Shown piece by piece: positions 58,726-64,000 of a stretch of 64,000 nucleotides of DNA; within the stretch, counting starts at the first letter, position 1; every line of letters starts with the position of its first letter. The position numbers and the translations under genes are program-made. The notes beneath the pieces are model-generated. The model saw only the letters and a list, made by a program, of their open reading frames with translations, ran no database searches and was not told the origin of the DNA. The stretch is taken from the NCBI GenBank assembly GCA_946405135.1, contig CAMJGD010000019.1:1-64000 (forward strand), read 5' to 3'. Source of the stretch: an uncultured Clostridiaceae bacterium (GTDB lineage: Bacteria > Bacillota > Clostridia > Clostridiales > Clostridiaceae).

Positions 58726-59502
58726 ATGAGTAAGGAAGAATTAAAATTAATTTTAGATAATCCTTTTTATATAAAAAATATAGAGAATCCTTCTTTAGAA
58801 ATGCAGCTTGCAGCAGTAAAAAGAAATGGCTCTTTAGTACAATATATAAAAGATCCTAGTTATGAAATTCAGCTTGAGGCAATTAAGTCTAATGCCTTAG
58901 CTATAGAATATATTAAAAGTCCAGATGAACAAGTTCAACTTATGGCTGTTAAGAGTTCTTGGAATGCACTTAAATATGTAAGCAATCCTACTTATGAAGT
59001 AATGAAAGCCGCTGTAACTGTAAAGGGATGGGCTCTTCAATATATAAAAAATCCTTCGGAGGAGCTTCAGCTCATAGCTGTGAATAAAGATTATGATGCA
59101 GTAAAGTATATTAAAAATCCTTCTGAAAGGGTGCAGGCAGAAGCAGTAAAAAATTACTGGGGGGCTATAAAGTATATAGATAAGCCTTGCTTAGCAGCAC
59201 AAAAGGAAGCTGTTAGGCAAAATGAAGAAGCTATAACTTATATAGATGCGTATGGAGAAGAAAATATAAAAATATTTCTAAAAGAAAATATAAATATTCT
59301 TAAATATCTATACGAAAACATAGACATTTCCTTGGTAGATGAGGTACTAATAACTAAATTAAAAGATGAAAATGTAGAAGACAAATATGTTATAGATTTT
59401 TTGAATCTTGAAATATTAGATATGGATAAAGTAGAGTTTATATATAATTATGGAAGTAAAAAAGCAAAAAAAGTATTGATAGATTACAAATTAGCAATGT
59501 AA
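58726..59502 (+). CDS. 22-residue-repeat helical protein
   Basis: The 258-residue protein carries about seven repeats of 22 residues covering residues 12-175. Each repeat has a Y(I/V)xxP turn and a helix of the form xxxxQLxAVKxNxxAIxY (YIKDP, YIKSP, YVSNP, YIKNP twice, YIDKP). The fold is expected to be a HEAT- or LRV-like superhelix resembling DUF4116-type repeats. The remaining C-terminus is unlike the repeats. It is not membrane bound. SD AAGGAG precedes ATG 58726. It starts a likely operon with a MoxR-type ATPase (17 bases downstream) and a VWA protein, suggesting it is a scaffold or adaptor. Confidence 0.85.
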   Translation: MSKEELKLILDNPFYIKNIENPSLEMQLAAVKRNGSLVQYIKDPSYEIQLEAIKSNALAIEYIKSPDEQVQLMAVKSSWNALKYVSNPTYEVMKAAVTVKGWALQYIKNPSEELQLIAVNKDYDAVKYIKNPSERVQAEAVKNYWGAIKYIDKPCLAAQKEAVRQNEEAITYIDAYGEENIKIFLKENINILKYLYENIDISLVDEVLITKLKDENVEDKYVIDFLNLEILDMDKVEFIYNYGSKKAKKVLIDYKLAM

Positions 59503-59519
59503 AGAGGGGAAGGATTTTT

Positions 59520-60644
59520 GTGAATTTTTCTGAAGCATTTATGACAGTAGACCTAGTTTTGAAAAGCAAAGCAGTACCTCTTATCATAGGTGAAAGTGGT
59601 ATAGGTAAAACAGCCCTTGTAAAAAAATTAAGTAAGTGCAAGGGTTATTATCTTATAACTATAGATGCAAATCTTTTAAAAGAAGGAGAAATTGGCGGGC
59701 TTCCTACAGTAGAAGATTATGAAGTAGAGGTTCAGGGAAGAAAGGTATGTAAAAAAAGAACAGTGTATGCAGTACATACAAAACTTGCTGAGATACAGCA
59801 AGTTTTGAAAGAAGATAAAAATAAAAAAATTATGTTTTTCATAGATGAAATAAATAGATGTGAGCATAGTGTACAGCAGGAGCTTATGAATTTAATTTTA
59901 AATAGAGAAATAAATGGATATTATCTTCCAGAAAATGTTGAAGTTATAGCAGCCATGAATCCATCTAATAAATATGATAATTTTGAAAATAGTGAATATC
60001 AGGTAGTAGATATGGATCCTGCTCAAGAAGATAGATTCGTTTGGATAGAAATGGATTCAAATTCTAAGGAATGGATAAGATGGGGCATGAGTGAAGAAGG
60101 AAATATTCACCAACATATATTAGAATTTATTTCATCTTTTCCTGAATATCTTCATACTCCAGATTCTAGAGAAAGTGTAAAGGCCACTCCAAGGAGCTGG
60201 GAGAGAATTTCTGAAGCTTATAAGATATATGTAAATGAAAAAGGGAAATATCCTCCAAAGATATTTTACAATGTGGTAAAAGGAAATGTAGGAGCTAGTA
60301 TAGCTCAAGACTTTATTTCTTTTATAGAAAACTACAAATCCTGCTTTATAGAACCTAAAGATATATTTGAAAGCGAAATAATAGGACAAGAGATAAGAGA
60401 TAGAATTCAAAGGGAGAGCCATTCAAGGCTTTATATAATAGCTAAAAATTGTATTATGTATCTACAGGAACATGAGCATAGTGAAAAGCAAATAAGCAAA
60501 TTTTCCAAGTTTTTAGATTTATATCCGGTGGATCTTCGCATGGGTATAATGAAAGAAATAAAAAATGATTTTGAAGAGAAGTTATATAAAGAGTTTTTAG
60601 ATAATGATGACTTTATAGAATTGTTTTTCTCTTGCTATATATAA
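59520..60644 (+). CDS. MoxR-type AAA+ ATPase
   Basis: The 374-residue AAA ATPase has Walker A GESGIGKTALVKKL near residue 25, Walker B MFFIDEINRCEHSVQQEL near residue 107 and sensor 1 VIAAMNPSNK, plus a winged C-terminal region. It is close to the AAA_5/MoxR group, which remodels metal-enzyme or protein complexes with VWA partners. The start is GTG 59520, with GAGGGGAAGGA (59504-59514) about 6 bases upstream. The next gene encodes a zincin/VWA protein, the expected partner. It is 17 bases after the repeat protein. Confidence 0.9.
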   Translation: MNFSEAFMTVDLVLKSKAVPLIIGESGIGKTALVKKLSKCKGYYLITIDANLLKEGEIGGLPTVEDYEVEVQGRKVCKKRTVYAVHTKLAEIQQVLKEDKNKKIMFFIDEINRCEHSVQQELMNLILNREINGYYLPENVEVIAAMNPSNKYDNFENSEYQVVDMDPAQEDRFVWIEMDSNSKEWIRWGMSEEGNIHQHILEFISSFPEYLHTPDSRESVKATPRSWERISEAYKIYVNEKGKYPPKIFYNVVKGNVGASIAQDFISFIENYKSCFIEPKDIFESEIIGQEIRDRIQRESHSRLYIIAKNCIMYLQEHEHSEKQISKFSKFLDLYPVDLRMGIMKEIKNDFEEKLYKEFLDNDDFIELFFSCYI

Positions 60645-60713
60645 TTTCTAAAACTTATAATAATAATTTTAATATAGAGATTTAATAGAATAATTAAAAA
60701 TAAAGGAGGATAA

Positions 60714-60732
60714 GATTAAGGTTTTCTTAATC
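60714..60732 (+). promoter_or_regulatory. Hairpin between SD and start codon of the VWA gene
   Basis: The stem gattaag (60714-60720) with cttaatc (60726-60732) lies between a strong SD (AAAGGAGG 60702-60709) and ATG 60744. If the hairpin is skipped, SD-to-start spacing is about 15 bases, similar to the ftsH arrangement at 11522-11572. Confidence 0.5.
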
Positions 60733-60743
60733 AGTATTTATTT

Positions 60744-62123
60744 ATGGTAGGAGGAAGCTTTGAAGATCTTAGAAAAAAACTTAAAAATCAGATTGTAAGT
60801 ATGACCTATGATGACTTTCAGGTGGAAAATAAAAAGCTATTTTTGGGAGATGAATTTAAAAGAGATTTTAATAATATTATAGAAAAATGTATTCTTTCTC
60901 TTATGGAAGGAGAAGATAATTTCTTTGGGCTTTTCATGATACAGGTGAAAAGGGAATTATCCATAAGCATAAAATATCCTATAAGTACCCAAGCTACTTT
61001 ATCTCATTTTATAATGTATTTTAATCCAATAAGCCTTTTGGATTACAGCTTTGAAGAAATGAAGGCTCTTATAAAACATGAGATATATCATATAATGTAT
61101 GGACATCTTTCTAGAGCAAAATCTTTGCAAATGAAATATGGTAAAACTGCAGTAAATTTAGCCATGGATATATCGGTGAATCAGTATATAAAAAATCTTC
61201 CGCCTTGGAGTGCTAAACTAGACAATGTGAGATTAGCCTATAATGTAGAGCTTAAAGAAGAAGAAACCATGGAAGCTTATGCAGAACACATTTATAAAGC
61301 ATTAAAAGATATAAAGTCAAAAAACTTAGATAGAGATATGAAGGATAATAAAGATTTATTTGATTTTGAAGATATTCATGATACTTGGGATTTTAATGAG
61401 CAGAATATCAGTGAAGATAATATTAAAGAACTTACAAATAAAACTGCTAAAAATGCAAATAAGTCAAGCTTATCTCCTAAGGGATTAGAGGAACTATTAA
61501 AAGGCATTGATGTGATACCAGAAATAAGCTGGAAGGATTATTTAAAGAGGATTATTCCGTCCATGCCCTATGGAAAGAGAAAAACCATCACAAGAAAAGA
61601 TAGAAGACAACCCAATAGGCTGGATTTAAGGGGAACTTTGAGAAACCATGTAGCTCAAATAATTGTAGCCATTGATATAAGCGGAAGTATTACGGATAAA
61701 GAGATAGAACAGGTAATGGTAGAGATATTAGGTATAGTAAAAAACCATGAAGCAGAGATAACTGTAATAGAGTGTGATGATAAGATAAGAAGAGTATATA
61801 AAATAAATTCAAAAAAAGATTTAAAAGAAAGATTAGACAAAAGAGGAGGCACAGCCTTTTCCCCTGTATTTGAATATGTAAATAGAAAATCCCTTAGAAA
61901 TCATCTAGTTATATATTTTACTGATGGTATGGGAGAAAAGGAACTTTCCGTAAAGCCTATAAATTATAAAACCCTATGGGTACTTACAGGCAAAGGGGAG
62001 AAGTTATCTTTGGAAAAACCCTATGGAGAGATAAAAAGATTAAAAGATGTAGATTACTCTCAGGTAGACAATACCTACGGTCTTAAAGTTATGAGAGAGT
62101 TATTGCATGAGTGGGCAAGGTAA
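60744..62123 (+). CDS. DUF2201 zincin-like and VWA-domain protein
   Basis: The 459-residue protein has an N-terminal putative metallopeptidase domain with ALIKHEIYHIMYGH (HExxH, then GH) near residue 113. A C-terminal VWA-like domain starts near residue 304 and has a metal-ion-dependent adhesion-site motif (VAIDISGSITDKE) and the later YFTDGMG. Such proteins pair with MoxR-type ATPases, and one is just upstream (about 100 bases). The target is unknown. ATG 60744 is the only sensible start in the open frame from 60720; the SD is 34 bases upstream across a hairpin. A terminator follows at 62177. Confidence 0.87.
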   Translation: MVGGSFEDLRKKLKNQIVSMTYDDFQVENKKLFLGDEFKRDFNNIIEKCILSLMEGEDNFFGLFMIQVKRELSISIKYPISTQATLSHFIMYFNPISLLDYSFEEMKALIKHEIYHIMYGHLSRAKSLQMKYGKTAVNLAMDISVNQYIKNLPPWSAKLDNVRLAYNVELKEEETMEAYAEHIYKALKDIKSKNLDRDMKDNKDLFDFEDIHDTWDFNEQNISEDNIKELTNKTAKNANKSSLSPKGLEELLKGIDVIPEISWKDYLKRIIPSMPYGKRKTITRKDRRQPNRLDLRGTLRNHVAQIIVAIDISGSITDKEIEQVMVEILGIVKNHEAEITVIECDDKIRRVYKINSKKDLKERLDKRGGTAFSPVFEYVNRKSLRNHLVIYFTDGMGEKELSVKPINYKTLWVLTGKGEKLSLEKPYGEIKRLKDVDYSQVDNTYGLKVMRELLHEWAR

Positions 62124-62176
62124 AAATAATAACAATAAAAGTTATACTTAATCATTCTTAGTAATTTCCTAAAAAC

Positions 62177-62220
62177 AAAAAATTACTACAAGAAAATTTT
62201 CTTGTAGTAATTTTAAATTT
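62177..62220 (+). terminator. Terminator after the VWA gene
   Basis: A long inverted repeat, aaaattactacaagaaaa (62179-62196) with ttttcttgtagtaatttt (62197-62214), is followed by T-rich sequence. Confidence 0.82.
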
Positions 62221-62296
62221 TAATTTATCTATTTTACACAAACCTATATATGTTCTCGAAGTATAGGTATTTATTATCCTTACCTCTTAGCTAATA

Positions 62297-62629
62297 TTAA
62301 TGACATCCGCCGCCGCAAGTAGAACAGCCACCGCCACCATCAATATTTTTAAGGGGTTCTAGCATTAATCCTTTTCCATTTTCAGAAGTACAGGTTATTT
62401 TAAATCCTTCAAAGTCTTCTATTAAAGACTTATCTATAAGAAAAGTAATATCTTTTACTTTTTCAACTATATCATTTTCTCTTTGTTCATCCAGAACAAT
62501 ATTAAACATTGGGCCGCTTCAGCCCATACCAGCTAGGTTTATCCTGATTATATAATTTTCAAGTTTATTATCATCAAGCACCTGCTTAAATTCATTATAA
62601 GCTATATCACTTATGTTTACAGCACTCAT
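62297..62629 (-). CDS. HesB-like selenoprotein (in-frame UGA)
   Basis: Read through one in-frame TGA (62521-62519), the gene encodes 110 residues of the HesB/IscA-like family. The N-terminal part ends in NLAGMG, the TGA follows at codon 37, and SGPMFNIVLDEQREND continues in the same frame. The adjacent paralogue (62933-63262) reads GMGCSGP at this place, so TGA stands for the metal-ligand Cys, as expected of selenocysteine. A stem-loop 20 bases after the UGA fits a bacterial SECIS. The C-terminus is Cys-rich (GGGGCSTCGGGCH). ATG 62629 has AGGGA upstream. Related HesB-like selenoproteins are known in bacteria. The role may be Fe-S or sulfur/selenium handling; that is inference. Confidence 0.85.
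62483..62499 (-). promoter_or_regulatory. Predicted bacterial SECIS element
   Basis: On the minus strand ttgttc (62499-62494) pairs with gaacaa (62488-62483) around a 5-base loop tggat. The stem starts 20 bases after the UGA and the loop has G at its second position, which fits the bacterial SECIS consensus. Confidence 0.7.
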
Positions 62630-62908
62630 AAAAATCCCTCTTTTCTTTAAAGTATCTTTTTTAGTATAACCTTTATTCCTTTTATATATTAAGGAAACTT
62701 CTTCATAATTTGAGAAACAAGCTACTATTATCAAATCATAAAGTTTAAATAGTTGGTTATAAAAATTAATAAAATTATTATAATATATTATGACTATTAT
62801 GTATAGTAATACAATGTAAATTATCTATAGAAAATATCTATCGCGATAATTTGTATTTTTAAATAGTGATTATTCAATAATATATTAAAGCTTTAATTTT
62901 AAAAATAA

Positions 62909-62932
62909 AAAAGACGCTTTCGCGTCTTTTTG
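62909..62932 (-). terminator. Terminator after the Cys-type HesB gene
   Basis: On the minus strand a gacgc/gcgtc stem with a gaaa tetraloop and A/T flanks (62909-62932) ends in a T-run, so the two HesB-like genes are probably separate transcripts. Confidence 0.82.
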
Positions 62933-63262
62933 TTAATGTCCACAGCCAGAACAGCCAGAACAACAATTCGTTCCAAAATTTTTTAAAGGTAACAGCATAA
63001 GACCTTTGCCATTTTCTTCTGTAGATGTTATTTCAAAACCATCAAATTGTTCTATTAAATCTTTACTGATTAAGAAGGTTATATCTTCAATTTTTACTAT
63101 TAGGTCATTTTCTCTTTCTTGATCTATAACTATATTAAAAGCTGGGCCGCTACAACCCATGCCAGCTAGGTTTATTCTTACCCTATAGTCTTCAATGCTA
63201 TTTTCCTCTAATAATGTTTTAAACTCATTATAAGCAGAATTGCTCATTTTTATAGCTTCCAT
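62933..63262 (-). CDS. HesB-like protein (cysteine form)
   Basis: This 109-residue paralogue of the selenoprotein next door has NLAGMGCSGPAFNIVIDQEREND in the region where the neighbour has UGA. It has the HesB/IscA-like fold and a Cys-rich end (NCCSGCSGCGH). SD AAGGAG precedes ATG 63262. In IscA-type proteins Cys residues bind Fe or Fe-S clusters; here the family Cys pattern is unusual, so it may belong to the distinct clostridial HesB-like branch. About half of the residues match the selenocysteine copy. The pair is a tandem duplication. Confidence 0.9.
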   Translation of the reverse strand: MEAIKMSNSAYNEFKTLLEENSIEDYRVRINLAGMGCSGPAFNIVIDQERENDLIVKIEDITFLISKDLIEQFDGFEITSTEENGKGLMLLPLKNFGTNCCSGCSGCGH

Positions 63263-63467
63263 GTATTATCTCCTTTTCTCCTTTTTATTAAATAAAAAAT
63301 TATAAAGTTTATACTTTAAAATTAATATTCTTTAACAATTATTTTAACTTATAATAATATATAACTCAATACAATTATTAAAAAAGATTATAAGTCTTAT
63401 AGAAAAATCAAATAATAAATTTTCTATATATAGATTTTAATAATAGCTACTATACAAAAATAAAATT

Positions 63468-63520: not shown

Positions 63521-64000
63521 TTATTTAGCAACTATATTTACAAGTCTTCCTTTTATAACTATTACTTTAACTATATTTTTTCCTTCTAAAGCCTTCTTTA
63601 TTTCTTCATTGCCTAAGGCAGCTTCTTTTATATTATCTTCATTTAAGTCTGAAGGAATGTTTATTCTAACTTTTATTTTACCGTTTATCTGTATAGCAAT
63701 TTCTATTTCATCTTTAATTAATGCATCTGCATCAAAAGCTGGCCAGCTCTGACTAAATACAGAATAATTGTTGTCATCTGTATTATTTTTGTAAAGCAGA
63801 TTCCAATGTTCCTCAGCAAAATGAGGAGCAAAAGGTGCTAACAATTTAATAAAGTCAGATACGGTTTCTTTTAAGAAGGATAAATTCTTTTCAGTTTCAT
63901 TCATATATTTGTATAGAGCATTAGTTAATTCCATTAATCTTGCAATAGCAGTATTAAATTGAAGTATTTCTGAATCTTGAGTTACATTTTTTATAGCAAA
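63521..64000 (-). CDS. leuS: Leucyl-tRNA synthetase, 3' part (5' end outside window)
   Basis: The frame is open to the window edge at 64000, giving the last 159 residues. It shows the anticodon-binding domain region [34 protein letters not shown] and the C-terminal domain [30 protein letters not shown] and [14 protein letters not shown], all typical of bacterial LeuRS. The catalytic domain, the start codon and any T-box leader lie outside the window. A terminator follows the stop codon. Confidence 0.95.

Follow-up and report, generated by a model that had tools for sequence, protein, structure and literature searches.

A HesB-like gene with an in-frame UGA, predicted to encode a selenoprotein, beside a cysteine twin in a Clostridiaceae genome

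One gene in the 64,000-nucleotide stretch of DNA analyzed here (the window) very probably encodes a HesB-like selenoprotein related to the A-type Fe-S carriers, with a UGA at codon 37 that would be decoded as selenocysteine (Sec) via SelB and a SECIS element, Sec thereby replacing the first ligand Cys of IscA-type proteins; we put the probability of this reading at about 0.96. The features of the locus are listed in Table 1. The frame, on the minus strand, runs from the ATG at 62629 to the TAA at 62297 and is interrupted solely by the TGA at 62521-62519, confirming the earlier proposal that the ORFs 62519-62734 and 62297-62509 are one. Its 110-residue product begins MSAVNISDI, continues through GMGUSGP to VLDEQ and beyond, and reads MSAVNISDIAYNEFKQVLDDNKLENYIIRINLAGMG-U-SGPMFNIVLDEQ around U37. 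The adjacent paralog at 63262-62933 carries a TGT within GMG-C-SGP (...NLAGMGCSGPAFNIV...), matching the GMG and SGP flanks as previously noted, and the two proteins align from end to end with 62% identity. Translation most likely starts at the ATG at 62629, which is preceded by GAGGG, rather than at the TTG at 62734, which we therefore consider an artifact of the ORF listing. A simple gene caller would report the gene as two short ORFs, an annotation that is corrected here.

Table 1. Features of the HesB-like locus in the window
Feature	Position	Strand	Basis or remark
HesB-like selenoprotein gene	62297..62629	minus	110 aa with U37, stop TAA included; TIGR01911 105.6 bits
Predicted bacterial SECIS core hairpin UUGUUC-UGGAU-GAACAA	62483..62499	minus	loop 62493-62489, 25 nt after UGA
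TGA read as selenocysteine (predicted), in place of the conserved GMGCSGP Cys	62519..62521	minus	frame and cross-species alignment
Likely ribosome-binding site of the Sec gene, GAGGG	62636..62640	minus	by eye; AAAGAGGGAT common to orthologs
Promoter-like TATACA-17-TATAAT 5' of the Sec gene	62777..62805	minus	consensus match only
Intrinsic terminator between the Cys and Sec genes	62908..62931	minus	10-pair stem, T tail
Cys twin, HesB-like, 109 aa, TGT at the Sec column, without SECIS	62933..63262	minus	alignment, TIGR01911
leuS (leucyl-tRNA synthetase), 3' part	63521..64000	minus	conserved upstream neighbor in several relatives; complete in L023

The assignment to the HesB-like family proposed in the earlier note is borne out by the NCBIfam model TIGR01911 (HesB_rel_seleno; cut-off of 66.35 bits), against which the Sec protein and its Cys twin score 105.6 and 98.2 bits, respectively. 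The GMGUSGP of the window protein places the UGA at the conserved Cys, within the U-x-G-P motif described for this family in a 2026 review (PMC13188914). Both copies score far below the equivalog cut-offs for IscA, SufA, and ErpA, and neither matches a Pfam family, PF01521 included. A sequence search reached AQ_1857 (1nwb) and HI1723 (2apn), and E. coli IscA weakly (E about 0.1); in the alignments with 1nwb and 2apn, U37 is aligned with the GCSG Cys. An AlphaFold2 model built from five sequences (pLDDT of 78, with the tail 97-110 below 50) matched 1x0g (Z of 9.6, rmsd of 2.9 over 96) and 1s98 (Z of 9.5), and on this model the protein is predicted to have the IscA-like fold of an A-type carrier. 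The modeled fold and the position of the first conserved Cys are those of the IscA/SufA/ErpA carriers (E. coli 1s98 and 1r94; A. aeolicus 1nwb), whereas the C-terminal tail is CSTCGGGCH in the window protein and CGCG in theirs.

Conservation extends across and beyond the TGA. A TGA occupies the same alignment column in 50 distinct genes of this genome and its relatives, and in other genomes the orthologs that share the leuS/VWA locus possess both the TGA and the hairpin. Downstream of the TGA, 27-37 of 48 residues are identical to those of orthologs, and the nucleotide differences lie mainly at third codon positions (7 comparisons, with third equal to first positions in one, L128); by this comparison, the C-terminal half of the gene is coding.

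A search downstream of the TGA, as advised in the earlier note, located a SECIS-type hairpin at 62499-62483. With its UGGAU loop, 6-bp stem, and spacing of 25 nt, it fits the published rules for bacterial SECIS elements, namely, a spacing of 16-37, a loop of 3-9, and a G within the first two loop positions (PMC13188914). Across this genome and its relatives, at least five of the six stem pairs are kept in 47/50 TGA genes (all six in 36 and one break in 11) versus 1/22 Cys genes, and the mean number of pairs kept is 5.62 versus 2.64, these counts coming from related sequences and hence not representing independent events. Compensatory swaps are common in the stems of the 50 TGA genes: pair 26-36 is T-A in 27 and C-G in 21, and pair 24-38 is T-A in 29 and G-C in 11. 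The GG of the loop is mostly lost from the 22 Cys genes, and the Leu codon that supplies it is CTG in 45/50 TGA genes, whereas CTG makes up 3.1% of the window's Leu codons. Taken alone, the hairpin of the window gene is weakly significant because the peptide VLDEQ itself favors the stem: of the synonymously recoded trials, 7% paired all six named positions, and 1% produced a stem of six or more pairs that obeyed the loop-G and spacing rules as well. The SECIS argument is therefore best seen as a comparison across genes, not as one drawn from the window gene by itself. An Rfam scan of 61800-63400 gave only sub-threshold chance matches, with the SECIS family absent. A second, stronger 7-bp hairpin spans the UGA itself; since the Cys twin has a similar one, we rejected it as a SECIS feature and regard it as a by-product of GMG[C/U]SGP coding.

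Three TGA genes without the canonical core carry a different hairpin that conforms to the rules: in G126 (locus L147), whose protein falls among the Cys proteins, it is UAUCUC-AGUUG-GAGAUA, and in both G014 and G100 (L117 and L123) it is AUCUA-GUUU-UAGAU. Differing in register or sequence, these hairpins seem to represent SECIS elements that were separately gained or shifted.

The earlier note implied that the organism has the selenocysteine machinery, and selA, selB, selD, and tRNA-Sec are indeed all found in its own genome. SelA (C2:178307-179662) scores 642.6 bits and SelB (C2:176389-178278) 391.5 bits (cut-off of 242), and selD lies immediately 5' of selA, scoring 411.9 bits against TIGR00476 and containing its own in-frame TGA near the N terminus (...SG-U-AAKIGP). 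The three genes form a selD-selA-selB cluster (L001 1483-3918 and C2:176389-178278), and SelD is itself a predicted selenoprotein with SGUAAKIGP. The tRNA-Sec, at C1:98466, scores 68 bits (gathering threshold of 47) and has the anticodon TCA according to ARAGORN; because it is on another contig, a tRNA scan of the 64-kb window found none. In a set of 58 genomes (this one and relatives, which are related and so not independent), TGA-type HesB genes occur in 31/39 selA-positive and 0/19 selA-negative genomes (Fisher p of 2e-9), and the selA-negative genomes have Cys-form HesB or none. The genome has a third HesB-like gene (L012 1761-1465; C3:33597-33848), in which the TGA falls in the shared alignment column and the SECIS core matches that of the window gene exactly. 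Unlike the window gene, it belongs to another subfamily (61.2 bits, under the TIGR01911 cut-off), lies just above the PF01521 cut-off, and has a shorter C terminus and no twin.

These data bear on three other explanations of the TGA. The earlier note ruled out decay as the source of a single TGA in an otherwise intact frame. That goes too far, because a single nonsense mutation from TGT/TGC to TGA would leave an identical picture. In a tandem pair of Cys genes, the downstream member could in this way have become a young pseudogene or a gene for a 36-residue peptide; a single base change suffices, and the adjacent intact Cys copy would relax selection. Such a recent event does not account for the 50 distinct genes, all from selA-positive genomes, that share this TGA column, for the covariation of the SECIS stem, or for the coding constraint that persists 3' of the TGA. 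We set nonsense decay aside as very improbable on the strength of the SECIS, the Sec machinery genes, and conservation across species, not of the intact frame. A one-base sequencing or assembly error, for which nothing specific speaks, has a negligible likelihood, given that other genomes have, in the orthologs at this locus, the TGA together with the same hairpin, which is intact in no Cys gene.

An open and conserved frame would equally be expected if the UGA were read through, in a programmed or leaky manner, with the insertion of Trp, Cys, or a residue other than Sec, and UGA readthrough is common to some degree. The full Sec machinery and the SECIS-type hairpin, together with the strict link to selA and the exchange of Cys and Sec at the TGA column, make this explanation scarcely credible. 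Selenocysteine is almost certainly inserted at residue 37, as judged from sequence comparison. In the mechanism that we propose, SelB carrying Sec-tRNA-Sec(UCA) would decode the UGA at codon 37, recruited by the SECIS hairpin whose apical UGGAU loop lies within the coding region, 25 nt 3' of the UGA. The selenolate of Sec37 would substitute for the first Cys ligand of the cluster or metal in IscA-type proteins and, together with the cysteines of the C-terminal CSTCGGGC, would probably serve in Fe-S or metal binding or in thiol/selenol redox chemistry, while the neighboring Cys paralog could be produced without selenium. The analysis directly shows the frame, the TGA, the machinery genes, the covarying hairpin, the conservation, and the fold model; the insertion, this biochemical role, and any division of labor between the twins are inferred.

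The two HesB genes of the window are separated by an intrinsic terminator, so they probably form separate transcription units, which would allow separate regulation. Upstream of them, Fur/PerR boxes gave only 4-mismatch matches, which are at chance level, and we therefore do not claim Fur/PerR regulation for this genome. Fur-box-like palindromes occur 5' of the HesB genes of relatives (e.g., L147, L135, L131, and L122), including a perfect TGATAATAATTATCA in L147, and, taken together, the relatives show an enrichment relative to shuffled sequences, with a mean best mismatch of 3.61 versus 4.30 +/- 0.09. The k-mers common to the HesB leaders are just ribosome-binding-site context and AT-rich words, and the many AT-rich inverted repeats in the two window leaders include none notable beyond terminators. 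On the other strand, positions 58726-62123 encode a DUF4116 repeat protein, an AAA ATPase, and a DUF2201 metallopeptidase/VWA protein, a set that also flanks the HesB genes of several relatives.

Pairing of Sec and Cys genes recurs in the family. In a survey of 147 Clostridiaceae genomes, 35 contain Sec genes above the TIGR01911 cut-off, and in 13 of these 35 a Cys gene is directly adjacent (loci L115-L125, L127, and window 62297-63262). Pairs are found at the leuS/VWA locus in the present genome, G007, G072, G010, and G089 and at three further places, in G014/G100/G131, G020/G080/G103, and G034/G112; both gene orders occur among the 13 pairs. In two more genomes (G119 and G149; loci L126 and L128), the neighbor of the Sec gene has neither Cys nor Sec; Pro stands at that position (GGNGPMGPM and GGYGPVGPM), and the remaining protein is intact. 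In the protein tree, supported branches record no fewer than 8 switches of the Sec/Cys label, and Sec and Cys copies cluster together within four genera. A sister relation between the two copies of the window genome is unsupported, and the Cys copy of this genome clusters with the G105 one (97/86). Where loci and order differ, the simplest reading of the sequences is independent duplication followed by a Sec-to-Cys change; gene conversion could mimic this at one locus. Adjacent Sec and Cys genes might be a selenium-dependent isoform pair, built repeatedly as a Sec gene was duplicated in tandem and one of the copies changed to Cys and lost its SECIS, the Cys copy being used when selenium is short; we hold this speculative reading to be rather unlikely.

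The window gene adds one member to a long-listed selenoprotein family; its recognition is correct and its novelty low, since HesB-like selenoproteins have been listed for bacteria, including Clostridia, since at least 2006 (PMC1794560). The earlier note was right that such proteins are known in bacteria and overstated the novelty of this one, the family being already catalogued and annotated in RefSeq (PMC1794560, PMC13188914). The gene shares with that family its sequence, the Sec at GMG-U-SGP, a bacterial SECIS, and its occurrence in Clostridia (PMC1794560, PMC13188914); nothing essential differs, and the window gene adds the adjacent Cys twin. Sec/Cys conversions and a remnant SECIS (Desulfitobacterium) have also been reported for HesB-like proteins (PMC1794560). 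MMJJ_08070 of Methanococcus maripaludis, identified by mutagenesis and 75Se labeling, is likewise a HesB-like selenoprotein, but an archaeal one, and the disruption mutant still fixes nitrogen (PMC11097638).

What is new here is the side-by-side occurrence of Sec and Cys twins (13/35 genomes), at several places and in both orders, and the shifted-register SECIS of a few relatives. Archaeal SECIS elements, by comparison with the hairpin proposed here, normally lie outside the coding region. For the twins, the evidence of novelty is weak: no description of tandem Sec/Cys HesB pairs turned up in the literature searched, which was mostly open-access. Together, our results show the window organism to be selenocysteine-using, and the recurrent twins, with intact, decayed, and re-registered SECIS elements, offer a natural series on when selenocysteine is worth keeping and on how a SECIS arises or disappears. 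If the twins are indeed selenium-dependent isoforms, Sec/Cys exchange and the birth of SECIS elements would be traceable in progress.
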